Shown here in pieces: positions 8,503-44,606 of a stretch of DNA of 57,527 nucleotides; within the stretch, counting starts at the first letter, position 1; the number at the start of each line of letters is the position of its first letter. The stretch comes from a virus. The stretch spans positions 1 through 57,527 of the IMG/VR virus record IMGVR_UViG_3300032309_003728; one strand, written 5' to 3'. Position numbers and translations under genes: made by a program. A model generated the notes under the pieces. It did no database searches and was not told where the DNA came from. It saw only the letters and a list, made by a program, of their open reading frames with translations.

Positions 8503-9086
8503 TGAAAATTATAGGAATTTCTGGCGTAGCTACATCTGGTAAAGATACATTATGCTCTTTAATAGCAAGACATCTTAGTAGCAAGAATATTAAATCCCAA
8601 AGACTTGCTTTAGCTGATAATTTAAAAAATGATCTTAAAAATTTTATATGCGATAAATTTGATATTAATATATTAGAAGCATCATCACAAGAAAAAACTT
8701 TAATAAGACCAATTATGGTAGCTTATGGTAAAGTAAAAAGAACCTTATCTAAAGGTAAGCACTGGACTAATATGCTAGACTTATCTATAGAAGATTTAGT
8801 TAAAGAGGATACTGTTCCAATTGTTACTGACGTAAGATATATGGAGTATCCAGAGGATGAATTTTTTTGGCTTAAAAGTAGAAATGGTATTTTAGTGCAT
8901 ATTTCTAGATTAGATATGAACGGTAATTTAATTATGCCAGCTAATCTTGAAGAAAAAGAAAACGATACAAAAATAAAAGAGAAAGCAGATTTAAAACTTA
9001 TATGGGAAACAGAGGATGATATTGATTCTTTGTATTATAACCATTTAAATTTTTTAAAAAACATATATGAACAAATTATTTTATAA
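8502..9086 (+). CDS. Deoxynucleoside monophosphate kinase, 194 aa
   Basis: The P-loop GVATSGKDT (8-16) and the later TDVRYMEYPEDE segment match phage T4 gp1-type kinases, which turn dNMPs into dNDPs. It follows the dCMP deaminase with overlapping stop and start, and overlaps the next gene by 20 bp. It supplies the step between ThyX or scavenged dNMPs and the triphosphates used by the phage polymerase. Substrate range is unknown. Confidence 0.8.
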   Translation: MKIIGISGVATSGKDTLCSLIARHLSSKNIKSQRLALADNLKNDLKNFICDKFDINILEASSQEKTLIRPIMVAYGKVKRTLSKGKHWTNMLDLSIEDLVKEDTVPIVTDVRYMEYPEDEFFWLKSRNGILVHISRLDMNGNLIMPANLEEKENDTKIKEKADLKLIWETEDDIDSLYYNHLNFLKNIYEQIIL

Positions 9087-9678
9087 CCAAAAAAACGATC
9101 TTGAATTAATAGAAGAAGTTAAATGCCAAAATTGTAGCGAAGCTATGAAAGAGCTTGAAACTAGGCATAGTGGAGTATGCTTTTCTATGATTAAAAAATA
9201 TTACAACGCTTTATCTTCTACGGGTCTAGATCCAAATGAAGTAGCTAAAGAAAAAGATTATGTTATGTATAAATCTATATTAAATTTTGATCCTTCAAAA
9301 AATATAAAATTTTCTACTTGGGTTGGTAATCAAATGAGATTTCATTGTCTTAACTCAATGAATAAAAACAACAATTCGATATCTATGGATAATGAAAATA
9401 TAAAAAATATCATAGAACGAAAACAATGTTTAGAAACTGCTAGATCAATAAATAAAGACAATTACGAATACATTTTTAATATATTATCTCAATTTAAAGA
9501 TAAAAGAATAGAAGAAATATTCAAAATGAGATATTTTTCGGATAAAAAAGTTGTATCTTGGAGTAAGATTGCTAAGAAATTAAAAATAAGCACTCAAACT
9601 GTAATTAACTTACATAACAAGGCTTTAAAATTTCTTAAAAATAAATTAGAAAGTAATCAATTTCAAGATACTATTTAA
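9067..9678 (+). CDS. Sigma70-like transcription factor, 203 aa
   Basis: Residues 61-97 read as sigma region 2, with FDPSKNIKFSTWVGNQMR (74-91) close to the usual DPxKGxKFSTYAxWxIRQ that binds core polymerase and melts the -10 box. Residues 140-195 have a helix-turn-helix of region 4 type ending in LHNKALKFLKNKL. Region 1 and most of region 3 are missing, as in T4 gp55 and other phage late sigma factors. The GTGTAAT motif without a -35 box before the giant virion genes would suit such a factor; that link is inference. Start at 9067 overlaps the kinase gene by 20 bp. Confidence 0.75.
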   Translation: MNKLFYNQKNDLELIEEVKCQNCSEAMKELETRHSGVCFSMIKKYYNALSSTGLDPNEVAKEKDYVMYKSILNFDPSKNIKFSTWVGNQMRFHCLNSMNKNNNSISMDNENIKNIIERKQCLETARSINKDNYEYIFNILSQFKDKRIEEIFKMRYFSDKKVVSWSKIAKKLKISTQTVINLHNKALKFLKNKLESNQFQDTI

Positions 9679-15860: not shown

Positions 15861-15959
15861 TTCCCCTTATTTAAACAGTATAGTATGTTACATCATATTT
15901 ATACTTAAATAAAGAAAATTATTGTTTGTTATTAACAAAAGATATAACTTAACCAATCA
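15861..15959. other. AT-rich spacer between nrdA and the structured RNA
   Basis: It contains the nrdA ribosome binding site AAGGGG, TATACT-like boxes near 15880 and a short TTGTTA/TAACAA inverted repeat near 15925-15937. The inverted repeat is followed on the minus strand by a T-rich stretch and could be a weak terminator. I see no coding frame. Confidence 0.35.
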
Positions 15960-16275
15960 AGTGTATCAATACCTTAATATAAATTAACTTCCCAATGAGT
16001 TCTTCAAAGCGGAGCTTTCCCTGTGTTTTTCACAAAGTTAGCAAAGCCTATTAGTTCTACTTCCCAATTGAGTCTATAAGCCTTTCGGCCCCTAACACTT
16101 ATCGGATGTCGGTAGAATCATCCATCGCGCGTTAGCCCTTACACCTACACTCCCACTATTACTAGTGGTTATCTGGGTCGCAAGCTCCTATAGCGTTGCC
16201 CACGTTTCGAACTAATAAGACTTATCGTTTTTTTTGGAGTACGACAAACCTTATCCGCTAATTGGGCGGTATGTA
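15960..16275 (-). ncRNA. Candidate large structured RNA or nrdA leader
   Basis: A stretch of about 315 nt, clearly richer in G and C than its flanks and with no open frame, follows a near-consensus promoter. On the minus strand it can form CCACTA/TAGTGG with a GTAA tetraloop (16153-16168), CTAACGC/GTGTTAG (16129-16135 with 16092-16098) enclosing GGATG/CATCC, GTCG+CTCC with GGAG+CGAC (16236-16245 with 16177-16188), a GCC-GAAA-GGC hairpin, CTTTGTG/CACAGGG and AAAGC-TCC-GCTTT. Two copies of a TTGGGAAGT motif (15987-15999 and 16059-16072) can each pair with the loop of the first hairpin (CCCAAT, 16261-16266). It is not tmRNA, and I find no RNase P, group I intron or cobalamin riboswitch core. It may be independent or the 5' leader of nrdA. 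Confidence 0.7.
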
Positions 16276-16281
16276 TGCTCT

Positions 16282-16310
16282 ATACTATAAACTATTTATC
16301 TTTTTGTCAA
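16282..16310 (-). promoter_or_regulatory. Strong sigma70-like promoter for the structured RNA
   Basis: A perfect TTGACA (16305-16310), 17 bp, TAGTAT (16282-16287) on the minus strand. Transcription would start near 16275 and run through the structured RNA towards nrdA. Confidence 0.8.
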
Positions 16311-16318
16311 AAATTATT

Positions 16319-16347
16319 TTGACTTTAAAATATTTTTATTTTATAAT
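16319..16347 (+). promoter_or_regulatory. Leaderless promoter of the sugar operon
   Basis: TTGACT (16319-16324), 17 bp, TATAAT (16342-16347), then 6 nt to the ATG at 16354. It is divergent from the RNA promoter; the two -35 boxes lie 8 bp apart. Confidence 0.82.
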
Positions 16348-16353
16348 TTAAAT

Positions 16354-19836: not shown

Positions 19837-20563
19837 CTTTATAGAATACCTAGAATCATTAAACAGCAAAGACTTATCAGACAGAAACAACCTTGAAGAC
19901 AAGGTCCTAATAGATTTAGGATTAAATAATGAAGCGCTGAATGAGCAGCCATCTCATCTAAGTGAATTTTACGGCAAAGGCCATGAGTTAAAAATTTGGC
20001 AGTATCCTAACCAATTTTCAAAATATTTATCATTTTTGTCAAAACACGCACATAAGATAAACTCTTATTTAGAGATTGGATGTAGACATGGAGGAACATT
20101 CATATTAACTTCAGAATTAATACATAAACTTAATTTTAATTTTGATAAATCTATAGCGTTAGATTTAATAGACGAAAGCGAAAACATACAAAAATACAGA
20201 GAAAAAAGAAAATTTATCCAATTTAAAAAAGAAGATTCAAATTCTGAAATTTTTAAAAATTATATTAAAACTAATTTTTTTGATTTAATTTTTATTGATG
20301 GTGATCACTCTTATGAAGGGGTTAAAAGCGATGGAGAAAATACAAGGGAGCATTGTAATATTCAAGTCTATCACGACATATCTAATGATGCTTGCCCTGG
20401 AGTTATTAGATACTGGAACGAATTAAAACACAGAAATAAAGATATTTATAATTTTTATGAATTTACTGATCAATATTATGAAGTTATAAAAAGAACAAAT
20501 CGTACATATTTAGGAATAGGTGTAGCAATTAAAAAAACTTTTGATAATTATCTTGCATTATAA
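19829..20563 (+). CDS. SAM-dependent methyltransferase or hydroxylase-like enzyme, 244 aa
   Basis: A Rossmann core with SYLEIGCRHGGTFILTSEL (motif I) and FFDLIFIDGDHSYEGVKSD places it in the class I methyltransferase fold near the Methyltransf_24 and cephalosporin-hydroxylase-like groups, which often modify sugars. It closes the sugar operon, 26 bp before the next gene. The last half is alpha/beta with an aromatic YEFTDQYYEV segment. Substrate unknown. Confidence 0.65.
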   Translation: MNNFIEYLESLNSKDLSDRNNLEDKVLIDLGLNNEALNEQPSHLSEFYGKGHELKIWQYPNQFSKYLSFLSKHAHKINSYLEIGCRHGGTFILTSELIHKLNFNFDKSIALDLIDESENIQKYREKRKFIQFKKEDSNSEIFKNYIKTNFFDLIFIDGDHSYEGVKSDGENTREHCNIQVYHDISNDACPGVIRYWNELKHRNKDIYNFYEFTDQYYEVIKRTNRTYLGIGVAIKKTFDNYLAL

Positions 20564-20588: not shown

Positions 20589-20939
20589 ATGACAAATCAT
20601 AAACTCTGTCAATTTATAGTTAAAAAATATCTTCAGAATAATGTTAATTGGGCAAGAGAAATAAAAATAGCTCAAAAATTAATAAAAAAACATAAAGATT
20701 ATAGCTTTTGGAATAATTTAAGACAGGTAAAATTGCCAAGTTTAGCTTGGCTTCTTACCGAAGAAGGCATAGCCTTTTTAAATATTGGGCATAAAGTCCA
20801 AGGGATGAAAGAGCAAGCTAAAGAAAAGCATTCAATATTAGATAATAAAATTGGAGAAGATAAAAAGACTTGCCAAAAACCTAAGAATATCATACAATTT
20901 ATAAGATCATGGGAAGAAGACCAAAAGAAGAAAACGTAA
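20589..20939 (+). CDS. Hypothetical protein, helical, basic, 116 aa
   Basis: A basic helical protein with WAREIKIAQKLIKKH, a LPSLAWLLTEEG segment and a charged tail. It precedes the UvsX-like gene and overlaps it by 31 bp, so it is translated with the recombination genes. Size and place suit a small replication or recombination accessory, but no family is recognised. Confidence 0.5.
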   Translation: MTNHKLCQFIVKKYLQNNVNWAREIKIAQKLIKKHKDYSFWNNLRQVKLPSLAWLLTEEGIAFLNIGHKVQGMKEQAKEKHSILDNKIGEDKKTCQKPKNIIQFIRSWEEDQKKKT

Positions 20940-22057
20940 CAGATCAAAATCTTGGACCATCTGCAAAGAGTCGATTAGCCTCTTTCTTGAAAGAAAACAA
21001 GGATGACCATTATAATTTTGAAGACGAAATACATTATAAAGTATCAACTGGTAGCTTAAATCTTGATATAGCAACTAGTGGAGGACTATGCCCAGGATTA
21101 CATAGATTTATCGGCATGAACGAAGGGGGGAAAACTTCTGAAGCTTTAGAGGTTGCAAAAAACTTTTTAAATAACATAAAAGATTCAAGAGCATTACTAA
21201 TCAAAGCCGAAGGAAGACTTGGCAAAGAGGTTAAGGAAAGATCTGGAATAAAATTTATTTCTAATCCAGATGAGTGGGAGGATGGAACATGTTTTGTTTT
21301 TGAGTCTAATATTTTTGAAACTATTTCAGAACTAATGAAAGATCTTATTCAAAATAATGATGAGAATAAGAGATATATATTTATTCTTGATTCAGTTGAT
21401 GGATTAATGACTAAGGGCGATTCTCAAAAAAGCATGACGGAAGCAACTAAAGTCGCTGGAGGAGCGGTCATCTCATCAATGTTGATGAAGAAGATTTCTC
21501 TAGCTCTTTCTAAACGCGGTCATATGGCGATTTTTATTAGTCAAGTACGATCAGATATTAAACTTGATCCCTACGCAGCAAACAAGGATATTAGACAAAC
21601 GACTGCAACTGGTGGAAATGCATTGTTGCATTTTGCTAATTGGATTTTGGAATTTGAACCAAGATTTAATAAAGATCTTATTCTAGAAAAGCCTAATGAG
21701 AGATATGATTCTATTAAAAATAAAATAATAGGACATAACGTAAAAATAACTATTAAAAAGTCTACAAATGAAACCACTAATTCAAAAATTCAATACCCAA
21801 TTAAATATGGCAGAAAGAATGGTTCTTCTGTGTGGAAAGAGTACGAAATAATTGATCAAATTCTTTCTTGGGAGTTTGCTACAGCCAAAGGTGCTTGGGT
21901 TACTTTTAACGATGAGATTATTGAAGAGCTTAAGAAAGAAAATATTGAGTTAAAAAAACAACACCAAGGAATTGACAATCTTCGCTTATATCTAGAAGAG
22001 AACAAACAGATAGTAGACCATTTTTACACAAAATTCATCAATACTCTAGCGTCATGA
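20909..22057 (+). CDS. uvsX: UvsX/RecA-like recombinase, 382 aa
   Basis: RecA-fold ATPase that coats ssDNA and exchanges strands. The Walker A loop is GMNEGGKTS (69-77). LIKAEGRLGKE gives the glutamate that contacts ATP, IFILDSVDGL is Walker B, and SQVRSDIKL followed by TTATGGNALLHFANW is the L2-like DNA-binding region. The pattern is closer to T4 UvsX than to bacterial RecA. It overlaps the gene before it by 31 bp and the nuclease after it by 4 bp. Probably acts in repair and recombination-dependent replication with the helicase and primase. Confidence 0.85.
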   Translation: MGRRPKEENVTDQNLGPSAKSRLASFLKENKDDHYNFEDEIHYKVSTGSLNLDIATSGGLCPGLHRFIGMNEGGKTSEALEVAKNFLNNIKDSRALLIKAEGRLGKEVKERSGIKFISNPDEWEDGTCFVFESNIFETISELMKDLIQNNDENKRYIFILDSVDGLMTKGDSQKSMTEATKVAGGAVISSMLMKKISLALSKRGHMAIFISQVRSDIKLDPYAANKDIRQTTATGGNALLHFANWILEFEPRFNKDLILEKPNERYDSIKNKIIGHNVKITIKKSTNETTNSKIQYPIKYGRKNGSSVWKEYEIIDQILSWEFATAKGAWVTFNDEIIEELKKENIELKKQHQGIDNLRLYLEENKQIVDHFYTKFINTLAS

Positions 22058-22473
22058 GGTTATTAAATATTAACGGAAAACTCGTTAATAAAAACGTAAG
22101 AAAAAACCTTGTAAATTGGGACACAAAAAGTAGAAGTAATTTGCAATATCAATTTAAACAATTTTTTCATATATATTGGAAGAATCATATAGTATATGAA
22201 GAGTTTCCAGTTTATGGGAGTATGCTTAAAGTCGATTTTTTAAATGCTACAAAAAAGATAGCGGTTGAAATACAAGGTAATCAACATGAATCCTTTAACA
22301 AATTTTTTCACGACAACTCAAGATTAAAATACTTACAAAGCATAAAAAGAGATGTGCAAAAAAGTAAATGGCTTGAAATGAATAATTTTAAATTTCTAGA
22401 ATTGTACGAAAATGACCTAAAAAAATTGTCACCACAATATATAGAAGAAAAATGCGGAATTTTAATTATTTAA
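22054..22473 (+). CDS. Vsr-like PD-(D/E)XK endonuclease, 139 aa
   Basis: The core EEFPVYGSMLKVDFLNATKKIAVEIQGNQH has the Glu, Asp and E-x-Q/K pattern of the very-short-patch-repair and DUF559 group of nucleases. It overlaps the recombinase gene by 4 bp (ATGA), so both are co-translated. It probably nicks or resolves DNA in repair or recombination. Whether it recognises mismatches cannot be told. Confidence 0.6.
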   Translation: MRLLNINGKLVNKNVRKNLVNWDTKSRSNLQYQFKQFFHIYWKNHIVYEEFPVYGSMLKVDFLNATKKIAVEIQGNQHESFNKFFHDNSRLKYLQSIKRDVQKSKWLEMNNFKFLELYENDLKKLSPQYIEEKCGILII

Positions 22474-22480
22474 GTGTAAA
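22474..22480 (+). promoter_or_regulatory. GTGTAAA motif upstream of the 92-aa gene
   Basis: GTGTAAA just before the GTG start at 22489 (gap of 8 nt), no Shine-Dalgarno sequence. It is close to the candidate late motif, but lies in the early region. Confidence 0.3.
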
Positions 22481-22488
22481 ACGATTTA

Positions 22489-22767
22489 GTGACTAATAAA
22501 AAAAAATTCACCTTTCCTAGTAATCTACTCAAGCAATTAGACGAATGCAGTTTCGGCGGATATATTTTATTTAATTTTAACTCCAAAGGTGATCCTCAAG
22601 TTTTTACCAAATTTGATAATCAAATGAATGCTATGGCCCTTTTATATTATGTAGGTTCATGGATAAGTACTGTTGATCAAATGAATATGGATGCAACAGC
22701 AGATGCTATAAATAAAGAAAACGATAAATACGATCAAAGTGAAGAGCGAGACGAAGATAACGATTAA
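22489..22767 (+). CDS. Hypothetical protein with acidic tail, 92 aa
   Basis: A GTG start at 22489 is supported by the good frame and the spacing to the motif upstream. The middle (GGYILFNFNSKGDPQVFTKF) suggests a small beta-rich domain, then a helix and a tail of alternating acid (DQSEERDEDND). The tail resembles acidic C-termini that contact replication proteins. It is placed between the nuclease and helicase genes. Function unknown. Confidence 0.45.
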   Translation: MTNKKKFTFPSNLLKQLDECSFGGYILFNFNSKGDPQVFTKFDNQMNAMALLYYVGSWISTVDQMNMDATADAINKENDKYDQSEERDEDND

Positions 22768-22779
22768 TATATACTTTAC

Positions 22780-22808
22780 TTGACTTTTAAAATATAAACA
22801 GTTATTAT
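22780..22808 (+). promoter_or_regulatory. Leaderless promoter of the helicase operon
   Basis: TTGACT (22780-22785), 17 bp, TATTAT (22803-22808), then 7 nt to the ATG at 22816. No Shine-Dalgarno sequence. Confidence 0.82.
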
Positions 22809-22815
22809 TATATAC

Positions 22816-24300
22816 ATGATTTATTCTCTTCAAATAGAGAGGCATGTATTAAGCGGCCTTATAAAATATCAGAATTTATTTCCAGATATAGATGTATTTT
22901 TATCTGAAGATGACTTTTATCATGAAGTCCATTCCACCATATATGCTGTATATAAAAACACTAAATACAAGGGAGAGAAAATAGATAAAGTTTTATTAGC
23001 TGAAAAAATTAAAAATCTTGGAATTTCATTTAAAGATGATATTAATATTTATGATTATATAGATAACTTGAGCTTTTCTCAAATTACAGAGGAAGCCACA
23101 ATGAATGCTTGTAAAGAGTTAATGAAACTGAGAATAAGAAGAGAAATAGGTCAAACCGCAGAAAAATTAAAACAATACGTAACCAAAAACGGAGAAGAGA
23201 CCATAGATAAAATAATATCCGAAGCAGATGCTATTTATAATAATAAAATCTCTTCTTACGAATCAAATGAAGAGCCAATTAATTTATTTGAAAATATAGA
23301 AGACATTATTGAAGAAATCGGAAACTCTCCAAGAGAAGAAGTCGGACTAGTAACTCCATATCAAGAGTTTAATAAATTATATGGAGGTTTAAAAAATGGA
23401 AACATTTACGCAATCGTAAGTAGACCTGGACAAGGGAAATCTACTTGGATAAATGATATGTGTTTTAATACAAGCAAGATCCCACAGAATAGAACTAAGA
23501 CTTTAGTTTTAGATACAGAAATGCAAACTTTAGATATTCAATTAAGAATGGTATCATCTATGACAGATGTTCCTATGTGGTATTTAGAAACTGGTAATTG
23601 GAGAAAAAATCCAGAAATGACAACAAAAGTAAGAGCTGCATGGGAGAATATAAAAGCTCATGATTATTTTCATTATCATGTAGGCAGTAAAAATATAGAC
23701 CAAATTTGTTCGATAATCAGAAGATGGTATCTTTCAAAAGTTGGTAGAGGAAATCAAGCTTTGATAGCTTATGATTATGTAAAATTAACTGGAGAAAAAG
23801 TTGGCCAAAACTGGGCAGAGCATCAAGCTATTGGTGATAAAATTGACAAATTAAAAAGAATATCCGAAGAAATACAATGCCCAGTTATCACGGCTATGCA
23901 GCTAAATAGAACAGGAGAGAATTTCAATCGTTCATCTACAAATGTTGTTGATGATAGCTCTGTCATTGCTTTATCAGATAGATTACAATGGTTCGCTTCT
24001 TTTGTAGCGATCTTTAGAAGGAAAACTTTAGATGAATTAGCCTTGGATGGACAAGAGTTTGGAACACATAAATTAATACCAACAAAGACAAGATTCCAAG
24101 GTAAAGAAGCTGCGGGGCATCAAGACTTAGTAAGAAGACTAGACCCAAGCGGTAAACAAGTCTGGTCACAGAATTATTTAAATTATAATGTCCACAATTT
24201 TAAAATAGAAGAAAGAGGCTCATTATTAACTATAACCCAAAGACAAAGAGAGCAGTATGAGCTTAATGATAGAAATCAAAATGATGGAGAAATCCTATGA
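22816..24300 (+). CDS. dnaB: Replicative DnaB-type helicase, 494 aa
   Basis: The N-terminal domain (IERHVLSGLIKYQN...LSEDDFYHEVHSTIY) is the DnaB_N primase-binding part. The C-terminal RecA-fold motor has Walker A RPGQGKST (203-210), VLDTEMQ (Walker-type H1a), ALIAYDYVK (Walker B) and AMQLNRTGENF, followed by DSSVIALSDRL. The helicase unwinds DNA ahead of the phage polymerase. The length is within the normal range. It leads an operon with thyX, the primase and a nuclease; thyX overlaps its stop by 4 bp. Confidence 0.92.
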   Translation: MIYSLQIERHVLSGLIKYQNLFPDIDVFLSEDDFYHEVHSTIYAVYKNTKYKGEKIDKVLLAEKIKNLGISFKDDINIYDYIDNLSFSQITEEATMNACKELMKLRIRREIGQTAEKLKQYVTKNGEETIDKIISEADAIYNNKISSYESNEEPINLFENIEDIIEEIGNSPREEVGLVTPYQEFNKLYGGLKNGNIYAIVSRPGQGKSTWINDMCFNTSKIPQNRTKTLVLDTEMQTLDIQLRMVSSMTDVPMWYLETGNWRKNPEMTTKVRAAWENIKAHDYFHYHVGSKNIDQICSIIRRWYLSKVGRGNQALIAYDYVKLTGEKVGQNWAEHQAIGDKIDKLKRISEEIQCPVITAMQLNRTGENFNRSSTNVVDDSSVIALSDRLQWFASFVAIFRRKTLDELALDGQEFGTHKLIPTKTRFQGKEAAGHQDLVRRLDPSGKQVWSQNYLNYNVHNFKIEERGSLLTITQRQREQYELNDRNQNDGEIL

Positions 24301-24956
24301 ACGTAAAATTAATATCATTAACAGATGCTAATATAGAGGGAGTTTTAAATTCAGAAGATCTTGTCGCTTATTGTGCTAGAGTCAGTAATCCGTCAAACCA
24401 AATGAATACTGAAACTGCACCAAAACTTTTAAAATTTTTAATCAAACACAAACATTGGTCACCATTAGAAATGGTAGACATGACAGTAGAAATTAAAACG
24501 AGCAGAGCGATAGCTGCTCAAATTTTAAGACACAGATCATTTTCGTTTCAAGAATTTAGTTTAAGATATAGTTTAGCTACAGAATATGAAGATATAGAAC
24601 TCAGACTTCAGGGTGATAAAAATAGACAAGTAGGAGAAAATTTATTGCCAAAAAAAGACACAGCTTATAATTCTATTACAAATTTAATTTCAGAAAGTTT
24701 AGCTTTAAGCGAGCACTGTTATCAAACTATGATTGATAATGGAATAGCGAAAGAAGTTGCCAGAATGATTCTACCATTGACTACTCAGACTACTATGTAT
24801 ATGAAAGGAACACTGAGGTCTTGGATACATTATATAGAATTGAGAACAGAGGAAAATACTCAAAAAGAACACAGGCTTATAGCGGAAGAATGCAAGAGTA
24901 TTTTTATGAAAAAATTTCCAATCATATCGGAGGCATTAGAATGGAAGAAAACGTAA
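24297..24956 (+). CDS. thyX: Flavin-dependent thymidylate synthase, 219 aa
   Basis: ThyX makes dTMP from dUMP with FAD, methylene-THF and NADPH. The signature RHR-x7-S is present exactly as R78-H79-R80 to S88, followed by LRY. The length and fold are typical. It overlaps the helicase gene by 4 bp and the primase by 16 bp. Together with the dCMP deaminase it gives a complete pathway from dCMP to dTMP. Confidence 0.94.
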   Translation: MNVKLISLTDANIEGVLNSEDLVAYCARVSNPSNQMNTETAPKLLKFLIKHKHWSPLEMVDMTVEIKTSRAIAAQILRHRSFSFQEFSLRYSLATEYEDIELRLQGDKNRQVGENLLPKKDTAYNSITNLISESLALSEHCYQTMIDNGIAKEVARMILPLTTQTTMYMKGTLRSWIHYIELRTEENTQKEHRLIAEECKSIFMKKFPIISEALEWKKT

Positions 24957-25852
24957 ATAGCATATACCAAATATTAACTAATATAGGATATTCCCTAAAA
25001 GATTGTGGGAAAGAGTATAGGACTAAACCTATTTATAGGGATAGTGATAATGATACTGTGCTAAGGATATATAAGGATACAGGATTTTGGGTAGATTTTA
25101 AAGAAAATATAAGTGGAGACTTTCCCTCGTTAATTAAAAAAAGTTTAAAACTTGACACAGAAGATCAAGCTAAAAGTTGGCTTAAGGACAAAAACTATTC
25201 AACTATAAACTATCAATCAGAAATTCAACCTAAAATAAAAGAGAAAAAGACGTTTGATAAAGAACTTCTTTTAAAGCTTGAGAAAAAGCACGAGTATTGG
25301 ATAAATAGAAATGTGAATGAAGAAACCTTGCATCTTTTTAAGGGTGGATTAGCCAAAGCTGGAAAGATGAAGAATAGGTATGTATTCCCAATTTTTAATA
25401 ATAAACAAGAGATAATAGGATTTTCTGGAAGAGATGTAACGAATGAAAGTAAAATTAAATGGAAGCATTTAGGGGATAAATCTAATTGGTGCTATCCTTT
25501 GTTCTTGAATCTAGAAACCTTAAAACAAGAAAAAGAAATTTTTATAATAGAAAGCATAGGAGATTGCTTATCCCTATGGGATGCTGGTGTACAAAATACT
25601 ATTGTAACATTTGGTTTAGAAATTAGTACTGCCATATTAAATGTATTACTAAAAATAGATCCAAATAAAATTTATATATCATTCAATAATGATTCAAGCA
25701 AAAACAACGCAGGAAATAATGCTTCTGAAAAAGCCGTGAATAAACTTTTGAGATATTTCGATAAGAATCAAATTAAAATAAAATTACCTGTTAAAAAAGA
25801 TTTCGGAGAAATGTCCATAGAAGAAATAAAAGAATGGAAAATTAAAACTTGA
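24941..25852 (+). CDS. DnaG-like primase, small, altered Toprim, 303 aa
   Basis: The usual Toprim strand IFIIESIGDCLSLWDAG places a Glu near residue 204, and ISFNNDSSKNNAGNNA occupies the place of the DxD acidic strand, but one Asp is Asn. The zinc-ribbon domain of DnaG is missing; residues 27-55 form a short piece in its place. I choose the ATG at 24941 since a GGAGG Shine-Dalgarno lies 8 nt before it; a frame start at 24821 lies inside thyX. It would prime lagging-strand synthesis with the helicase. The altered metal site should be tested. Confidence 0.75.
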   Translation: MEENVNSIYQILTNIGYSLKDCGKEYRTKPIYRDSDNDTVLRIYKDTGFWVDFKENISGDFPSLIKKSLKLDTEDQAKSWLKDKNYSTINYQSEIQPKIKEKKTFDKELLLKLEKKHEYWINRNVNEETLHLFKGGLAKAGKMKNRYVFPIFNNKQEIIGFSGRDVTNESKIKWKHLGDKSNWCYPLFLNLETLKQEKEIFIIESIGDCLSLWDAGVQNTIVTFGLEISTAILNVLLKIDPNKIYISFNNDSSKNNAGNNASEKAVNKLLRYFDKNQIKIKLPVKKDFGEMSIEEIKEWKIKT

Positions 25853-26793
25853 AAGTTCTATCAGCTTCAAGAATAAAAACCTTAGAAACCTGTTCATGGG
25901 TTTATTGGAATAATTATCACACTAAAGTTCCACAGACTCAAAATGATGGAGCCTTGAGGGGTACTATTTGTCATACAGTCTTTGAATTGCTTTTGAATCC
26001 AAAACATAAGAAGCATTACAATAAAATTATAAAACAAAATTCTATCACTGGAAGCAAAGCGATGGAAAGATTAGTTAAGAAATTAAAAGCAAAAGTTGGG
26101 CTAGATCCCTCTAATTTTGAAATATTAGACCAAATGATTATGGTTGGATTAAAGCATGACTTTTTTGGAGAAGGAGGCAAAATAGTAAAACCTGAATTTC
26201 CTTTTGAGATAAAGAATGATAGTCCAAAATATCATATTAAAGGTTTTATAGATAAACCAATTAAAAAGAAAAAAGAAATGCATATAGTTGATTATAAAAG
26301 CTCTAAATATAAATTTAGAGGAGATGACTTAGAAGCTAATATTCAAGCTATGATGTATAGTTTGGCTAGTTTAAAAATTTGGCCAAAGTTAAAACCTATA
26401 GTTAAATTTTTATTTTTAAGATTCCCAAAACAACCAATACAACAGCTTTCTTTTACAGAAGAACAAATTAAAGGTTTTGAATATTATTTAGAGCATATAA
26501 ACAATTATATAAATAATTTTGATGAAGATACTGCTCAAGCAAATTTTGCTGCGGATAACGAAAAGAATAAATGGATGTGTCAAATTGGTGGATGGAAATG
26601 CCCATACAAGGATTCATATGAGTATTATGTAAAATTAAACACAGAAGGAGAAGTGATTGAATCTAATTTTGATGGAAATTTTAAAGAAACAAAAGGGTTT
26701 GTAATAGAGAAAAGATCTTATGAAGGTTGCCCAAAGTGGAAACGAAGTCCAGACACACCTAACACAATTATTAAAGACGAATTTTTAGATTGA
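25849..26793 (+). CDS. PD-(D/E)XK nuclease with possible Fe-S cysteines, 314 aa
   Basis: The RecB/Cas4-type fold shows GTICHTVFELLL near the start, then KGFIDKP, HIVDYKSS (the D and ExK-like centre) and an EANIQAMMYSLA helix. Cys15 near the N-terminus and three cysteines at the C-terminus (MCQIGGWKC, then EGCPKW) have the spacing expected of the Fe-S cluster in Cas4 and AddAB nucleases. The start is TTG at 25849, overlapping the primase stop. It probably processes DNA ends in recombination or repair. Confidence 0.72.
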   Translation: MKVLSASRIKTLETCSWVYWNNYHTKVPQTQNDGALRGTICHTVFELLLNPKHKKHYNKIIKQNSITGSKAMERLVKKLKAKVGLDPSNFEILDQMIMVGLKHDFFGEGGKIVKPEFPFEIKNDSPKYHIKGFIDKPIKKKKEMHIVDYKSSKYKFRGDDLEANIQAMMYSLASLKIWPKLKPIVKFLFLRFPKQPIQQLSFTEEQIKGFEYYLEHINNYINNFDEDTAQANFAADNEKNKWMCQIGGWKCPYKDSYEYYVKLNTEGEVIESNFDGNFKETKGFVIEKRSYEGCPKWKRSPDTPNTIIKDEFLD

Positions 26794-26817
26794 CAAGATA
26801 TATATTATAATTATAAT
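26790..26817 (+). promoter_or_regulatory. Leaderless promoter of the polymerase operon
   Basis: TTGACA (26790-26795), 16 bp, TATAAT (26812-26817), then 6 nt to the ATG at 26824. The -35 box overlaps the end of the nuclease gene. Confidence 0.82.
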
Positions 26818-26823
26818 AAGGTT

Positions 26824-27588
26824 ATGGATATTATTCCTTTATTTAAATCTCACTATAGTATAGGAAGGTCTATACTTACTCTTGAGGATGAAGACCATAA
26901 TAATACTTATCCAGATTCAATTATTAATATAATAAAAGAAAATAACTTAAAAAGCCTTTATCTTGTAGAGGATAATATGTCCTCTTTTCTACAAGCTTAT
27001 ACTAATACTAAAAAGAATAATATAAATTTAAGATATGGATTAAGAATTACTGTCACAGATAATATGGAAGATAAAAGCGATGAGAGTAGAGTCAAAAATT
27101 GTAAATTTATTATATTTTTTAAAAATAATGAAGGCTACAGAAAATTAATTAAAATATTTAGTATAGCTGCAAAAAACGGTTTCTATTACGAACCAAGAAT
27201 AGACTACAAAACCTTGAAATCATTATGGGATAATAAAGACTTACTTTTATGCGTGCCATTTTATGATTCATTTATTTTTAATAATTTATTAAGAAATTCG
27301 CTGTGCACACCCCAACTCGATTTCTGTTCACCGACTTTCTTTATAGAAGACAATGGCATCCCTTTTGATTCTTTAATAAAATCAAAAGTATTAGATTATT
27401 GTGATAAAAATAAAAACGATACAATGAACGTAAAAAGCGTATTTTATAAAACAAAATCTGACTTTAAAGCTTATTTAACTTTTAGATGCATAAATGTCAG
27501 AACAACTTTAAATAAACCAGAAATAGAGCATATGACAAGTGATACTTTTTGCTTTGAAAGCTGGATGGAGAAAATCAAAAATGGATGA
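26824..27588 (+). CDS. DNA polymerase III alpha PHP domain, separate protein, 254 aa
   Basis: The start PLFKSHYSIGRSILTLED, then LYLVEDNMSSFLQAY, LRYGLRITVTD, FKNNEGYRKLIKIFSIAAKNGFYYEPRIDY and a final FCFESW follow the N-terminal PHP domain of DnaE. Typical ligands are not kept: the HxH start reads KSH, the DH of the second motif reads EDN, and the E of the third is missing. So this domain is probably no longer a metal enzyme. The polymerase core is in a different gene 0.8 kb on, and the exonuclease gene starts within the last bases of this one. Confidence 0.78.
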   Translation: MDIIPLFKSHYSIGRSILTLEDEDHNNTYPDSIINIIKENNLKSLYLVEDNMSSFLQAYTNTKKNNINLRYGLRITVTDNMEDKSDESRVKNCKFIIFFKNNEGYRKLIKIFSIAAKNGFYYEPRIDYKTLKSLWDNKDLLLCVPFYDSFIFNNLLRNSLCTPQLDFCSPTFFIEDNGIPFDSLIKSKVLDYCDKNKNDTMNVKSVFYKTKSDFKAYLTFRCINVRTTLNKPEIEHMTSDTFCFESWMEKIKNG

Positions 27589-28219
27589 ACATCTTTTAAG
27601 ATACGATAAAAATAAAAGCTTTATTTTTATAGACTTTGAAACTTTTAATCTATGTTTAAATTTTTGCCATAATTTACCTTGGCAGATTGGAATGCTTAAA
27701 GTAAAAGGCGACACAAAAATGGACAGTAAAAACTATTATATAAATTGGGATACTGCTTTAAGAATAAGTGATGACGCTGCAAGAATCACCAGATACGATC
27801 ATAATAAAGTTAAAAAATTAGGAGTAAAAATAGAAGAGATATTTCCAACAATTAAAGATTGGTTAGATCATACCGATTATATTGTGGGGCATAATATATT
27901 GGGTTTTGATTTATATTTAATAAAAGAGCTTTATAAAAAAATGGGATGTCATTGGGAGCATTTGACCGAAAAAATAATAGATACAAATTGTGTCGCCAGA
28001 GGTATTAAATACAACTTACCATACAAAAGATCAGATAATTTCTTAGAATATCAATACAAAATTTATCATACCAGAAGAAAAGACGTAAAAAGTTCTCTTA
28101 CATTTTTAGGAAAAGAATCTGCGATAGATCATGATTACGAAAAGCTTCATGACGCATTAAATGATCTTGACTTAAATTTAAAAATATGGAATAAATTGAA
28201 ATGGCAGGTAGACTTATAA
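27581..28219 (+). CDS. DnaQ-like 3'-5' exonuclease, 212 aa
   Basis: DEDDh proofreading nuclease: IFIDFET (Asp18, Glu20), VGHNILGFD (third acid) and HDYEKLHDALNDLDLNLK (His and last Asp). I prefer ATG 27581, which overlaps the PHP gene stop in ATGGATGA, to the longer frame start at 27539. It sits between the PHP and polymerase genes, as the exonuclease is inserted between or within the same domains in PolC. It probably edits errors of the nearby polymerase. Confidence 0.8.
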   Translation: MDEHLLRYDKNKSFIFIDFETFNLCLNFCHNLPWQIGMLKVKGDTKMDSKNYYINWDTALRISDDAARITRYDHNKVKKLGVKIEEIFPTIKDWLDHTDYIVGHNILGFDLYLIKELYKKMGCHWEHLTEKIIDTNCVARGIKYNLPYKRSDNFLEYQYKIYHTRRKDVKSSLTFLGKESAIDHDYEKLHDALNDLDLNLKIWNKLKWQVDL

Positions 28220-28220
28220 T

Positions 28221-28436
28221 ATGGCTTCACTAGATGACATTTATGACGCGCTAGATGTATTAGACAAAGCTGATGCAGAATACATGCTTATAACTATACA
28301 AAAAGGAAAAAAGCAAGGAAAGGCAGATGTATTTTTTAATCTAAAAAATGAAGATTCCTTGAAAATACTTTCTAAAGGATTAAAAACCTTTAGCGAGGAA
28401 ATAGATAGAAAGAAAGAAAATGGAGACTTTAATTAA
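28221..28436 (+). CDS. Small acidic/basic protein between exonuclease and polymerase, 71 aa
   Basis: Helical, with alternating charges: DDIYDALDVLDKADAEYML, then KKQGKADVFFNL and a helical tail. It begins 1 bp after the exonuclease stop and overlaps the polymerase start by 17 bp, so it is translated with both. It may link subunits of the split polymerase. No family recognised. Confidence 0.5.
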   Translation: MASLDDIYDALDVLDKADAEYMLITIQKGKKQGKADVFFNLKNEDSLKILSKGLKTFSEEIDRKKENGDFN

Positions 28437-30993
28437 CTCAAAAAAATTCGAAGAGAACTTCTCTCAAGTAAACTTACCCCTTCATGGTGTAAGGCTCCCT
28501 GAGTTTCATATAGACAATAAGTACAAGCACGAATTAAATATAAGCGAAGATTCTTCGAATTATGATTTTCTTCGAGCTTTAACATTAAAAGGTTTAAAAA
28601 ACTTAAATCTAAAAAATGATTCTAAAGAATACCATAATTATATTAGTAGAATCAAACATGAGTTAGACACAATTAAAGAGCTTGGATTTATTGATTATAT
28701 ATTACTGGTTTGGCACGTTATCAACTATTGCAAAGAGAATAATATACCAGTTGGTCTTGGCAGAGGGTCTGCTGCGGGTTCATTAATTTTATTTTTAATA
28801 GGCGTGACAAGAATAGACAGCTTAAAATATAACCTTTATTTCGAAAGATTTATATCCAAGATTAGAGCTAAAAAGCAAGAAGTCGATGGGGTAATGTACT
28901 TGGATGGTACATTAATGTGCGACGTAGATTTAGATATATGTTATTATAATAGACAAAAGGTTCTACAACATTTAGAGGAAAAATTCAAAGGAAAAACAAG
29001 TAAGATTTTAACTCTTAATAGTTTAAGTGGAAGGCTTTTGATGAAAGAGTGCGGGAAAATAATTGGAGAAAAATCAGACCAAGAAATGACTGAGATATCA
29101 GCCCTAATACCTAAAGTTTATGGTCAAGTCAAAGATATTCAAGAAGCTTATGAAGATGTACCCAAGTTTAAAAAATGGTGCGATGAGAATAAAGAAATTT
29201 ATGGAACTGCTCTTAAGTTAAGAAACCTTATTAAGAATAAGGGTGTTCACCCTTCTGGAGTTTTGTTGTCTTATAATAAGTTAGAGGAATCTTGCCCGAC
29301 TGAATTTTCTAGCGACAAAGAACCTGTATCATCTTTCGATATGAATTGGGTTTCTTTATTCAATATCAAATTAGATATATTAGGCTTGAGAAGCGTTTCT
29401 GTTGTTGATGACGTTTGCAAGCAGATAGGCGTAAAAATAACTGATATAGATTTAAATGATTTGTCAATATACAGATCTTTGCAAGAGCTTAAAACCCCAC
29501 ACGGATTATTTCAAATTGAAGCTGATACAAATTTTAGAGTCTGCAAACAAGTAAAACCAAAAAATCTAGAAGAATTAAGTGCTGTTTTGGCTTTGGCTAG
29601 ACCTGGGGCTTTACAATTCGCAGAAACGTATGCTCGTTATACTAATACTCAGCAATACGAAGGTATACATCCATTCTTCGATGATATTTTAAAACAAACA
29701 GGTGGAGTTGCTTTGTATCAAGAACAATTGATGCAAATGGCAAATAAAATTGGTTTTACTCTAGATGAAGCGGAAATCTTAAGAAGAATTGTAGGCAAGA
29801 AGAAAACTGAAGAGATCAAAACTTGGAAAAAGAAAATCGAAAATAAGATTAAAGAAAATAACTTGCCAAAAGAAGTAGGAGATATTTTATGGAAAATTTT
29901 AGAAGACTCAGCGAATTATTCGTTTAATAAATCTCATTCAATTGCTTATGCGGCTTTGGCTGCTTGTACTGTGTATTTAAAATTTAATTATCCAAAAGAA
30001 TTTTTCTTGTCTCTATTAAAAATGACTAGGCACGAACCAGATTCAATAGGAGAGATTTCAAAAATTCAAAAAGAAATGAGCGCCTTCAATATCAAGTTGT
30101 TGCGCCCACACATTATAAAATCTGATATGGATTTTTCTATTGAAGGAAATGATATTAGATTTGGATTACTATCTGTTAAAGGGATTTCTGATAAATCAAT
30201 TGAAAAGTTGAACAGCTTTAGAAATAGATACTCTAATAAATTTGAAATCTTTCAAGCTGCTGAAGAGGCAGATTTAAATATTGGAGTTCTTTGCTCTTTA
30301 ATTCAAGCAGGTGCTTTGACTGGATTCAAGCAATCAAGAAGTAAGATTGTTCTAGAGGCTCAATTATGGAATATTTTAAATGCAAAAGAAAAGAAGTTCT
30401 GTATTTCTTTTGGTGAAAGATTTGAATATGATTTAATTAAAATTATAAAACATTTAAACAAGTTTACTGATGAAAAAAATAAGGTAGTAATAAAGGACTC
30501 TAGATTAGAGACTATTAAAAAGAAGTATGATCCATACCTAAATATATATAACCAAAATAGTAAAAGCGAAAGTTTCGCTAATTGGTATTACGAAAGAAGA
30601 TTATTAGGGTATACTTATGAAAAAACTTTAAAAGATATTTTCCATGATAAAAGACAAAATCTTCAAACCGTGGAAGAGATTTGGGATACTCCAGCTGGCT
30701 CAAAAGTGTTTTTTGTTGGAGAAATAGTTGATGTATATAATGGAATAGCTAAAAACGAGAGAAAGACTAAATTTTGTAGAGTATCAATTACTGATGAAAC
30801 AGATACTATTGATACTCTTTTATTTAATGATTTTATTGAAAGTAATAAATCTTTAAACAACAATAAGAATTACGAAGAAAAGAATATAGTCATAGTAAAA
30901 GGTACTAAAAAGGAAGATGCTGTATTTGGAGAAATTATAGCAATACAAGACCAAAGAATATATATGAAATTAAGTGAATTAAAAATCAAATAA
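28420..30993 (+). CDS. dnaE: DNA polymerase III alpha catalytic core lacking PHP, 857 aa
   Basis: The C-family polymerase core is clear. GRGSAAGS (114-121) lies in the palm, catalytic acids are Asp168/170 in CDVDLD and Asp319 in KLDILGLR, and VLALARPGALQ, YQEQLMQMANKIGF and FNKSHSIAYAALA follow. A tandem HhH-like region is near 565-600, and a C-terminal OB fold (about 750-850) begins KVFFVGEIVD. No PHP domain is present; it is in the gene at 26824. The N-terminal residues 1-60 correspond to the linker after the PHP domain. No tau- or clamp-binding tail is certain. It should be the replicative polymerase of the phage. Confidence 0.9.
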   Translation: METLINSKKFEENFSQVNLPLHGVRLPEFHIDNKYKHELNISEDSSNYDFLRALTLKGLKNLNLKNDSKEYHNYISRIKHELDTIKELGFIDYILLVWHVINYCKENNIPVGLGRGSAAGSLILFLIGVTRIDSLKYNLYFERFISKIRAKKQEVDGVMYLDGTLMCDVDLDICYYNRQKVLQHLEEKFKGKTSKILTLNSLSGRLLMKECGKIIGEKSDQEMTEISALIPKVYGQVKDIQEAYEDVPKFKKWCDENKEIYGTALKLRNLIKNKGVHPSGVLLSYNKLEESCPTEFSSDKEPVSSFDMNWVSLFNIKLDILGLRSVSVVDDVCKQIGVKITDIDLNDLSIYRSLQELKTPHGLFQIEADTNFRVCKQVKPKNLEELSAVLALARPGALQFAETYARYTNTQQYEGIHPFFDDILKQTGGVALYQEQLMQMANKIGFTLDEAEILRRIVGKKKTEEIKTWKKKIENKIKENNLPKEVGDILWKILEDSANYSFNKSHSIAYAALAACTVYLKFNYPKEFFLSLLKMTRHEPDSIGEISKIQKEMSAFNIKLLRPHIIKSDMDFSIEGNDIRFGLLSVKGISDKSIEKLNSFRNRYSNKFEIFQAAEEADLNIGVLCSLIQAGALTGFKQSRSKIVLEAQLWNILNAKEKKFCISFGERFEYDLIKIIKHLNKFTDEKNKVVIKDSRLETIKKKYDPYLNIYNQNSKSESFANWYYERRLLGYTYEKTLKDIFHDKRQNLQTVEEIWDTPAGSKVFFVGEIVDVYNGIAKNERKTKFCRVSITDETDTIDTLLFNDFIESNKSLNNNKNYEEKNIVIVKGTKKEDAVFGEIIAIQDQRIYMKLSELKIK

Positions 30994-39209: not shown

Positions 39210-42143
39210 TTAAATACTATTACCAGTTATATCAATATATTTATAAATAACATCATTTAATCCAATTTTTAATTGAGCAACATCTTTTTCTAAAAATCCT
39301 TGGTTATTGTATCCTATTCTTACATTATAACTATTAACTGTAGGATCATCTATAAAATCTCCAGTAAATCTAATTCCTGTTAGAGATTTCCTATTTGGAC
39401 TATTAAGAGCTAAATAGGATATATTATCATCTGATACTAAAATATTCCATATTCTTCCAGATTCTTGATTGAATGTTCTATATCCAACTATTCCTGATAC
39501 ATTTCCTGTTATAATATCTGAATAATTCTCCAGCATATATCCAGTTGCAAGTACTTGCTCAAATATATATCCTGTTAGTAATCCTGTAAAATACATATTT
39601 GGATAGAAATTTTGACCACTAAATAAAGTTTCGCCTGTTTGTAAAATTGGTCTAGTTTCTCCGCCAAAGGTTGTTATAGATATATTATCTCCTAAAGTTC
39701 CAGAATCTAAAGCTGCAGAAAGTTTTAATCTGTTATTAGGTAAATCTAATTCAGAAGCTATTCCGTATTCATCTTTACCAGAATTAATAATATTATGTAA
39801 TTCAGTAATATTTTTAAAATAATCAGGAGGATTAAAGAATGTTTCTGGAGAATATATTAAAGTTTTTATAGTATCTCTATTTGAATTTTGTATAGTAATA
39901 GAGTCTAATTCTACAGGATTATTATAACTTAAATAATTGAATGAATTAATATATCCTGTTGCTTGGTTTTGTTTTCCTATTAATTTATATCCTGTGATTA
40001 TTTGATCAAAAATAAATACTCCGCTATTTATATAGTCTACAAATCCAGTGAGTTTTCCTGTTATGTAATTAAATCCAGAAACATTTTTTCTTAATATACC
40101 AACAGAAGGTATATATCCCACAACATTTTCATATCCACTTTTATGAATATAACCGCTTCCTTCTAATAAAATTTTATTTAAAATATTAATTCCTGGTACT
40201 TCTCCAAGACTCTTAGCTTCTCTACTAACCACTAATTCTGAAGTTTCCCATCCGCTTCCTCCTACAACAACATAACTTACATTTTTAAAGAAATTAACTT
40301 TATAAGATTCTGGATCATAAAAGTTTTCTGTTATAGTTTGAATTCCACTGTATTTTCCTGTATAAAGGTTTTCTCTATACAAAGAGAAAGGAGGCAAGGT
40401 TACATCTTCATTTTTAGAAAATTCATTGAACTCTTCTGGTTTTAAATCAGTTCTATTTAAAAGATTTCCACTCTCTAATAAACTAGCTCTAGGTTTATAA
40501 CGAGCAGCATTTTGTTTTATTATATAGTAATCTTCTATAGGAGTTATTTTTCTATTTTTTGAATCTACAAAATTTTGATTATTTAATAATTTTCCTGTTG
40601 TGTAACCAGAAGCATTTAAGACTCCAAATGAATCTGTTGGGCCTATATCTCTATATTCAACAAACCCTTTGATTCTATGGAAAATATCTCCAGAATAATA
40701 AGAGTTATTAATATTATCTACTCCTGTTAAAATAATTGAATTTATTTCTGGATTAAAATTATATTTTGAAAAAAGACTTATGTTTTTGACTATTAATTTA
40801 TTTACTAATTGTTCCTTATATTCCTGATTTTCTGTTTTTTTAATAACAGGAGCAGTTCTAAAACCGCTCATGTATACTCTTGCGTATTTATATTTATTTG
40901 AAAATTCAGTAGGCTTTTCTGGCAAAAACACAAAATTGTTTGAAGAAGAACTACTTGAAGAAGAACTACTTGAAGAAGAACTTGAAGAAGGACAAGCTGG
41001 AGGATTAACTTGACCCCAATCATTATGTCCCCAAGCAGTTACGCTGCCATCTTTAAGAAGAGCAAGAGAATGACGATCTCCTGCAGCTATTTCTACTGCA
41101 TTAGTTCCTATACCAATTGGAATAGTAGTTTGGCCATAAGCATTATAGCCCCAACCAGTTACAGACCCATCTTTAAGAAGAGCAAGAGAATGACTACTTG
41201 CAGCAGCTATAGCTGTAGCATTATTTCCTATTCCAACTGGAATATTAGTTTGACCATTAAAATTATACCCCCAACCAGTTACTGTTCCATCTTTTAATAA
41301 GGCAAGAGAAAAATTATATCCTGCAGCTATTCCTGTCGCATTATTGCCTATTCCAACTGGAATATCTATTTGACCATAATTTTCCTCACCGACTACTCCC
41401 CACCCAGTGACTCTACCATCTTTTAGTAATGCAAGAGAATGAAACTTTCCACCAGCTATTCCTGTTGCGTTGTTGCCTATTCCAACTGGAATAGTAGTTT
41501 GACCATAAGTATTATCTCCCCAACCAGTTACGCTGCCATCTTTAAGAAGAGCAAGAAAATGAAAAAATCCAGCAGCTATTCCTGTTGCGTTGTTGCCTAT
41601 TCCAACTGGAATATCTATTTGACCATAACTATTAATTCCCCAACCAGTTACGCTGCCATCTTTAAGAAGAGCCAAAGAATTAAATTGTCCATAAGCAGCT
41701 ATTTTTGCAACATTACCTTGTATATCTTGGGGAACATTTAATTGGCCCTCGTTATTATATCCATAACCAACCACAGTCCCATCTTTTAGAAGTGAAAGAG
41801 AATAATCCTGTCCTGCAGTTATTGCAGAAACATTATTACATTTAGAAACAATGTTTATAGTCCCAGCCATGAGACTATGATGTTCACAGTTGTAATATAG
41901 AATACTTGGAGCACTAGCGTCAACAGTAAATGTTAATGTGCTATTAGTAGTTCCGTTATTTGTGATCCCTATATTGTATTGATTTATTGATCCTATATTC
42001 TTGGTTGTTTTGATCCAGAAAGGATGATTAGGAGCATTAATAGTAAATGTATATGTTTGTCCTCGAATTAACGTTAATACAGGATTACTAGCTCCATCTA
42101 TGATGTAAGCTGCGGCACCATTATTTGTTACTGAAAAATTCAT
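39210..42143 (-). CDS. Giant virion protein: cupredoxin-like domain, RCC1 propeller, Ser linker, 977 aa
   Basis: Residues 1-100 form a cupredoxin-like domain with a complete type-1 copper set: His40 (NAPNHPF), then Cys86-x2-His89-x2-Met92 (CEHHSLM). Residues 101-386 hold seven RCC1 blades (LALLKDGxVTGWGxN), just enough for one propeller. A serine linker of about 16 residues follows. The remainder (410-977) is a long beta-rich part with phage tail-type repeats and no known fold. It is probably part of an adhesive fibre or decoration. The ATG has an AAAGGA Shine-Dalgarno sequence. Confidence 0.7.
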   Translation of the reverse strand: MNFSVTNNGAAAYIIDGASNPVLTLIRGQTYTFTINAPNHPFWIKTTKNIGSINQYNIGITNNGTTNSTLTFTVDASAPSILYYNCEHHSLMAGTINIVSKCNNVSAITAGQDYSLSLLKDGTVVGYGYNNEGQLNVPQDIQGNVAKIAAYGQFNSLALLKDGSVTGWGINSYGQIDIPVGIGNNATGIAAGFFHFLALLKDGSVTGWGDNTYGQTTIPVGIGNNATGIAGGKFHSLALLKDGRVTGWGVVGEENYGQIDIPVGIGNNATGIAAGYNFSLALLKDGTVTGWGYNFNGQTNIPVGIGNNATAIAAASSHSLALLKDGSVTGWGYNAYGQTTIPIGIGTNAVEIAAGDRHSLALLKDGSVTAWGHNDWGQVNPPACPSSSSSSSSSSSSSSSSNNFVFLPEKPTEFSNKYKYARVYMSGFRTAPVIKKTENQEYKEQLVNKLIVKNISLFSKYNFNPEINSIILTGVDNINNSYYSGDIFHRIKGFVEYRDIGPTDSFGVLNASGYTTGKLLNNQNFVDSKNRKITPIEDYYIIKQNAARYKPRASLLESGNLLNRTDLKPEEFNEFSKNEDVTLPPFSLYRENLYTGKYSGIQTITENFYDPESYKVNFFKNVSYVVVGGSGWETSELVVSREAKSLGEVPGINILNKILLEGSGYIHKSGYENVVGYIPSVGILRKNVSGFNYITGKLTGFVDYINSGVFIFDQIITGYKLIGKQNQATGYINSFNYLSYNNPVELDSITIQNSNRDTIKTLIYSPETFFNPPDYFKNITELHNIINSGKDEYGIASELDLPNNRLKLSAALDSGTLGDNISITTFGGETRPILQTGETLFSGQNFYPNMYFTGLLTGYIFEQVLATGYMLENYSDIITGNVSGIVGYRTFNQESGRIWNILVSDDNISYLALNSPNRKSLTGIRFTGDFIDDPTVNSYNVRIGYNNQGFLEKDVAQLKIGLNDVIYKYIDITGNSI
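40941..40988 (-). repeat. Poly-serine linker of the 977-aa protein
   Basis: About 16 serine codons made from TCA, TCT and AGT in a repeating order, between the propeller and the C-terminal part. Confidence 0.85.
40990..41843 (-). repeat. Seven RCC1 blades in the 977-aa protein
   Basis: Seven units of about 40 codons each, with near-identical DNA. They follow the cupredoxin domain and precede the Ser linker. Confidence 0.85.
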
Positions 42144-42188
42144 TTTTTATTTTCCTTTAATATGTTATATGGATAGTTCATTTTAATT

Positions 42189-44564: not shown

Positions 44565-44592
44565 TTTATATTTTTTCCTTTTTCCATCATAA

Positions 44593-44599
44593 ATTACAC
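44593..44599 (-). promoter_or_regulatory. GTGTAAT motif upstream of the 791-aa gene
   Basis: GTGTAAT on the minus strand, 28 nt before the ATG at 44564. A purine-rich ribosome site lies between. Confidence 0.45.
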
Positions 44600-44606
44600 C
44601 CTTAAA

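Follow-up and report, generated by a model that had tools for sequence, protein, structure and literature searches.

A conserved structured phage RNA with co-varying direct repeats and a possible link to its own template DNA

What is encoded in the non-coding stretch that lies upstream of nrdA in the genome of an uncultured phage? The locus, about 300 nt long, occupies the minus strand at about 16275–15985 of the window, by which we mean the whole 57,527-nt stretch of IMG/VR phage DNA that was analyzed. The original prediction offered two answers, a free RNA of a phage or a long nrdA leader with ligand control. Its description of the position, the non-coding character and the base composition holds: GC content is 0.45–0.47 across 16000–16249 versus 0.17–0.28 in the flanks. 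A hidden coding frame, named as one of the findings that could overturn the prediction, did not appear, as no open reading frame of at least 40 aa is present on either strand from 15861 to 16353. The RNA gene was placed at 15985–16276 (minus strand; cmsearch match 15983–16279, E 1e-103), with ends conserved in 40 homologues. Its 5′ end would lie about 7 nt past the −10 box, and its 3′ end at or just past the second copy of a direct repeat, X2. The folding energy of the locus is only mildly unusual taken alone (z = −2.5), and comparative analysis was therefore needed.

A promoter spans 16310–16282 on the minus strand. Its −35 box, TTGACA (16305–16310), and the 17-nt spacer recur in nearly all of the 40 homologues, and its −10 box, TAGTAT (16282–16287), is conserved in the homologues with the family pattern TAnnAT. 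The promoter had been called perfect; this is right for the −35 box and the spacing and wrong for the −10 box, the total being 10 of 12 consensus bases. A single match of this kind is not unusual in such AT-rich DNA (28 found, 28.3 expected). Upstream of the homologues, the mean best promoter score was 10.3 versus 8.3 in shuffled upstream DNA, and the TTGACA-17-TAnnAT promoter is retained while the genomic setting of the RNA changes. Comparison establishes the RNA gene itself, and from the promoter sequence we infer that it is transcribed on its own. Elsewhere in the window, positions 9067–9678 may encode a phage sigma factor, the match to PHROG 351 (RNA polymerase sigma factors) being weak (E 1e-11).

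The first homologues, with 74–90% identity, came from the surroundings of IMG/VR genes related to nrdA and to the neighboring glycosyltransferase gene, and a pattern scan enlarged this set. A covariance model of 17 family-1 sequences (R1) retrieved a second, divergent set at E values of 1e-8 to 1e-17. More pattern scans and a model built on the divergent set (R2) widened the family, and about 70 distinct RNA sequences, including one truncated where its contig stops, were gathered from IMG/VR phage contigs. The homologues are confined to phage contigs. R2 found exactly one copy per contig in 15 of the 15 larger contigs of the clade. The same model found no RNA in three contigs outside the clade (two with a more distant nrdA, one retrieved by a short repeat pattern alone) or in the Pelagibacter phages HTVC008M and Mosig, which are the closest named phages when nrdA is compared (about 52% identity). 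A blastn search of named phages yielded no homologue, with two weak matches at chance level, and bacterial genomes scanned for the repeat pattern of the divergent family (X1...X2, described below) contained none. At the gathering cut-off, the 4227 families of Rfam 15 matched the window at its tmRNA gene alone. When the search was relaxed to E ≤ 10, the best match to the RNA reached 16.4 bits against a cut-off of 115 and lay on the opposite strand; searches with the L035 and L004 homologues were also negative. Literature searches on phage structured RNAs and co-varying repeats, confined to open-licence papers, found no description of it. The RNA is unlike every Rfam 15 family and its class is previously undescribed, in agreement with the original prediction, which recognized no class in it by sequence.

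The fold was derived from two alignments, and all coordinates that follow are on the minus strand. Read from the 5′ end, the hairpins H1 and H2 precede a multibranch domain closed by H3, which encloses H4, H5, one strand of a pseudoknot, H7 with H8 inside it, H9 and the first repeat copy, X1; H10, H11 and X2 follow. The family-1 alignment has 63 pairs, 96.7% paired, and 19 of these pairs show changes on both sides, compared with 8.0 ± 1.5 in shuffles and 0–5 in slid structures. In the divergent family the count is 37 of 63, compared with 27.4 ± 2.3 in shuffles and 8–16 in slid structures. We regard these compensatory changes as decisive for a structured RNA, the individual helices being predicted from the alignments.

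H1 is a 5′ hairpin (16255–16269, CCGC/GCGG) that covaries in both family 1 and the divergent family, and H2 (16222–16247, TTGTCGT/ACGATAA) is 100% paired with two compensatory pairs in family 1. H3 pairs its 5′ strand (16209–16219) with its 3′ strand (16047–16057); half of its 10 pairs are compensatory in family 1, and its sequence CUUAUUAGUUC/GAACUAAUAGG is replaced by UAUCAAUCC/GGAUUGAUA in the divergent family. Both alignments contain H4 (16174–16202), a hairpin of UGGG/CCCA with an inner CGC/GCG and a conserved GCAACG...GCGAC. H5 (16153–16168, CCACTA/TAGTGG) has compensatory changes in four of six pairs in family 1. Within H7 (16092–16135), CTAACGC at 16129–16135 pairs with GTGTTAG at 16092–16098; this helix had been proposed from the single sequence and passed the covariation test, with compensatory changes in family 1. 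The same kind of change supports H8 there, where GGATG (16119–16123) pairs with CATCC (16104–16108). A second helix of the original prediction, 16236–16245 with 16177–16188, did not survive: 5 of 17 homologues disrupt it, and the covarying helices H2 and H4 are in competition with it. H9 (16079–16090, GGCC-GAAA-GGCT) is the GNRA hairpin that had been anticipated, and 7 of its 8 pairs covary in the divergent family; its forms are GCC-GAAA-GGC, ACC-GAAA-GGU in L065, and a GCAA loop in the L003/L004 group. H10 (CTTTGTG/CACAGGG) and then H11 (AAAGC/GCTTT) fill 16006–16037 and are present in both alignments. The pseudoknot joins GTAGG at 16144–16148 to a 3′ strand in the H8 loop (16112–16116). It is supported by covariation and takes at least five consistent forms across the family (GTAGGT/ACCTAC, GTAGCT/AGCTAC, GTAGTT/AACTAC, GTGGCT/AGCCAC and GTGGAT/ATCCAC). 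No features of the RNA are more unusual than this pseudoknot and its co-varying direct repeats, and both had been missed.

The repeats are two copies of a 10-nt purine-rich element, X, about 70 nt apart, the distance varying from 65 to 75. In the window both copies read ATTGGGAAGT: X1 at 16059–16068, preceded by GACTCA, and X2 at 15987–15996, closing the conserved region on its 3′ side. X1 equals X2 in 40 of 40 RNAs although X differs among phages. The variants ATTGGAAAGT, ATTGGGAAAT, ATTGGGAAGA, ACTGGGAAGT, AAAGAAAAGT and AGGGAAAAAG occur in other phages, always in both copies. On a tree of the 40 RNAs built without the X columns and the columns of the preceding pyrimidine, all 16 substitutions (12 in X and 4 at that pyrimidine) were common to both copies on the same branch, and they include transversions and single-base changes between close relatives. 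One divergent set was retrieved by the X2 pattern, so that X2 was fixed there by selection of the sequences and X1 was not; nrdA led to many of the divergent members, and nrdA or unrelated patterns led to family 1. The H2 and H11 patterns brought in L258 and L246, which carry a further variant, ATTGGGAATT, in both copies, an out-of-sample confirmation of the rule. The surroundings of the copies are not alike. In copy 1 the step from the pyrimidine to X is one nucleotide longer, the additional base usually being A, and the nucleotides directly upstream of X differ between copies, with a GGA a few positions further upstream common to both. Nearby loops are invariant, yet X varies widely from family to family, which is what equality of the copies as its sole constraint would lead one to expect.

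Two equal strands cannot pair together, and their equality implies either a third, complementary strand or a shared binder. Judged from this pattern of substitution, it is fairly probable that the X copies function through base pairing. A partner was sought within the RNA, and no column pairs with X in at least 60% of the sequences. Complements of X in the window and six larger relatives were scattered, occurred at about chance level and did not recur; the best one elsewhere, in G003 at 20226, lies within a coding sequence on the same strand. The phage tmRNA was rejected as the partner, giving U-rich matches only and inconsistently. A role as the RNA partner of a retron- or DRT-type reverse transcriptase was discarded as no RVT_1 domain, a sign of an enzyme that might switch between the equal copies, was found in 10 contigs, several of them fragments, and one as the reRNA (omega RNA) of TnpB as PF07282 was likewise missing from 10 contigs.

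The template DNA of the RNA itself is the simplest partner that remains, since it requires no other evolving sequence and leaves X free to drift; we name it tentatively. The full proposal, a free phage RNA with its own promoter and a fold whose X1 and X2 arms pair with its own template DNA, has in our estimate a probability of roughly 35%. The RNA would be transcribed from its sigma-70-type promoter, and the H3-closed multibranch domain and the pseudoknot would hold X1 beside the closing helix, with X2 ending the RNA. X1 and X2 would be base-pairing arms, as their strictly linked evolution suggests. While X2 is transcribed, X1 of the folded transcript would pair with the template strand at X2, and the resulting R-loop, in DNA very rich in AT, would keep the transcript attached to its template. 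Such an R-loop could prime phage DNA synthesis or stop transcription, much as in ColE1 RNA II. The transcript would then be self-addressed: by invading the template at X2, X1 would provide a tailed phage with an RNA-encoded, protein-independent site for R-loop replication priming or for formation of the transcript 3′ end, a possibility that we consider rather doubtful.

Several observations bear on this template-DNA proposal. The length of purine-rich X approximates the hybrid of about 10 nt inside a transcribing polymerase (PMC5043065). An element expected of a replication pre-primer is present in 40 of 40 RNAs, as internal X1 is identical to downstream X2 and able to pair with the template DNA. 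The 60 nt after X2 have a GC content of 20.5% versus 29.5% for the window; AT-rich DNA is common in these genomes, which counts against the reading. In its favor, a terminator-like hairpin after X2 was found in none of the 22 contexts inspected. Strand skew tracks the direction of the genes and gives no sign of an origin at the RNA; in G004 it changes sign 8 kb away from the RNA, at about 88 kb. RNase H (PF00075) was not found in nine phage contigs, and a host RNase H could serve instead. The replication genes of the window also weigh against the proposal, since they encode DNA polymerase III alpha, DnaB, a DnaG-like primase and RecA and are not T4-like. Their block extends over 20909–30993 and includes a split PHP domain; the nrdA of the window is closest to that of Kyanoviridae among named phages despite this Pol III alpha-type block. 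At 39210–50177 are very large minus-strand proteins with RCC1-like repeats (ALLKDGRVTGWG...) and long serine tracts, probable tail or adhesion proteins.

The RNA II hybrid of ColE1 involves an interaction between a G-rich loop and a C-rich template. RNA II resembles the new RNA in the proposed mechanism only, as a structured transcript in which an internal element pairs with the downstream template to form a persistent hybrid (PMC5043065). It differs in being about 550 nt long, plasmid-borne and controlled by RNA I, and it has no sequence or structure match to the new RNA. Within 150 nt after X2, antisense promoter-like sites, such as an RNA I-like inhibitor would need, showed no excess (8.7 versus 8.8 in shuffles). 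The T4 origins oriF and oriG offer another likeness: there a phage promoter precedes an AT-rich unwinding element, the place of R-loop formation by the transcript (PMC3016281). Their promoters are MotA middle promoters and no particular RNA sequence is required, whereas the new RNA has a conserved fold and a promoter of sigma-70 type.

We favor the RNA's own template DNA only slightly over a host RNA target or a two-site protein. If the RNA acts in trans, X1 and X2 would be two identical seeds that pair with, or sponge, a host RNA or DNA, and X would track its host target. This alternative is possible, though we would not expect it. A pair of identical seeds is a usual trait of sponges and multi-site sRNAs, and the strong host-type promoter suggests early expression. 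Family-1 X also contains, on our own reading, what we take to be the complement of the tRNA-Gly(CCC) anticodon loop; the X of the divergent and other families does not fit, and the tRNA idea was rejected. The phage genomes examined hold no recurrent complementary site, pairing with the phage tmRNA is inconsistent, and the transversions between close relatives would demand that the host target change too.

An unlikely but coherent explanation is that the copies are two sites bound by an RNA-binding protein or nuclease that is homodimeric or multivalent and whose specificity drifts, the module being a hairpin, GGA, 4 nt and X. Each copy does lie 3′ of a hairpin with GGA at a fixed spacing upstream of X, which resembles a repeated binding module and is unnecessary for template pairing; the distance of 65–75 between copies means that the two need not be held rigidly. 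Protein sites normally tolerate unequal variants, however, and here every one of the 16 substitutions is shared, including single-base changes between close relatives.

It is improbable that the copies are kept identical by copying at the DNA level, through gene conversion or template switching, with no base-pairing function. Recombination is frequent in phages, and direct repeats of 11 nt are able to mispair. Nevertheless, the flanks within 3–4 nt of X stay different between the copies, recombination between direct repeats would mostly delete the intervening ~70 nt, and no reverse transcriptase turned up in the 10 contigs.

The genomic setting bears on the second answer to the opening question. 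The RNA precedes nrdA and points into it in four settings: the window, family 1, the L012 group and L063. Members of the L035 and L003/L004 groups carry it away from nrdA, on the strand opposite to nrdA and divergent to the tmRNA gene at a distance of 105–304 nt, and in L061 it sits inside a glycosyltransferase operon, ahead of a glycosyltransferase. A leader acting in cis would keep a constant position on the same strand ahead of its gene, and that gene would have no other promoter region; the RNA occupies other positions and strands in relatives, and the region upstream of nrdA is conserved where no copy of the RNA is nearby. This region lies outside the RNA (15861–15970, minus strand) and contains TACACT, TGTTAATAA, TTTTCTTT and TGTAACATA. 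It is retained in many relatives without the RNA near nrdA, and its elements are absent from the L061 RNA, located away from nrdA. A long leader through which a ligand or NTP would control nrdA fits the first four settings named above and is rejected on this synteny, the likelihood left to it being negligible.

Across relatives, the conserved sequence upstream of nrdA comprises TACACT, TGTTAATAA, a box of TTTTCTTT or TTTGCTTT, and TGTAATATA before nrdA, and it resembles a T4 MotA-box middle promoter. The tmRNA gene is likewise conserved in these phages and, in two subgroups, is a divergent neighbor of the new RNA; it is a separate gene with its own Rfam match and no consistent pairing with X. 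In the window it lies at 1564–1953 (RF00023, 89 bits; ARAGORN tag AKTAKYKGHISARVSLVEMTESVA), and it is present in five of five other large relatives scanned. Adjoining it, positions 1999–2541 encode an HNH-type endonuclease (PHROG 3322), and similar HNH-type proteins (KCxxCG...YNRRI) occur near the tmRNA/RNA pair in L035, L030, L042 and L152. Such a protein may be a homing endonuclease that moves the tmRNA/RNA region. In L050 (13886–14202), the RNA is found between two similar copies (282 and 274 aa) of one protein gene (MPCPLTSDLEYPDYVKKILKEIE...), as if it had landed in the gene or duplicated it.

The lack of an Rfam match, the phage-only homologues, the conserved promoter of its own and the many settings unrelated to nrdA support the first answer, a free and undescribed RNA of a phage, and the locus almost certainly belongs to a free-standing structured phage RNA family. 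In being free-standing, highly structured, phage-encoded and of unknown function, it is like GOLLD and ROOL (PMC12286853). Those RNAs are larger, GOLLD often exceeding 800 nt and the ROOL of the cryo-EM structure having 659 nt, and both are often near tRNA islands, compared with about 300 nt for the new RNA. The covariance models of GOLLD, ROOL and OLE did not match it at the gathering threshold or at E ≤ 10. The GOLLD and ROOL report mentions no counterpart of the paired repeats, the term "direct repeat" being absent from its text (PMC12286853).

Herein, we describe a sizeable class of structured RNA, present once per genome across a clade of uncultured phages and missing from Rfam. Its direct repeats evolve as a pair, a signature outside the scope of standard covariation screens: a stem needs complementary strands, and equal strands need a third, complementary one. 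The rules governing R-loop formation are listed as open for the T4 origins (PMC3016281). If the third strand is the template DNA, this RNA would offer a compact and easily testable system for an RNA fold that programs an R-loop.
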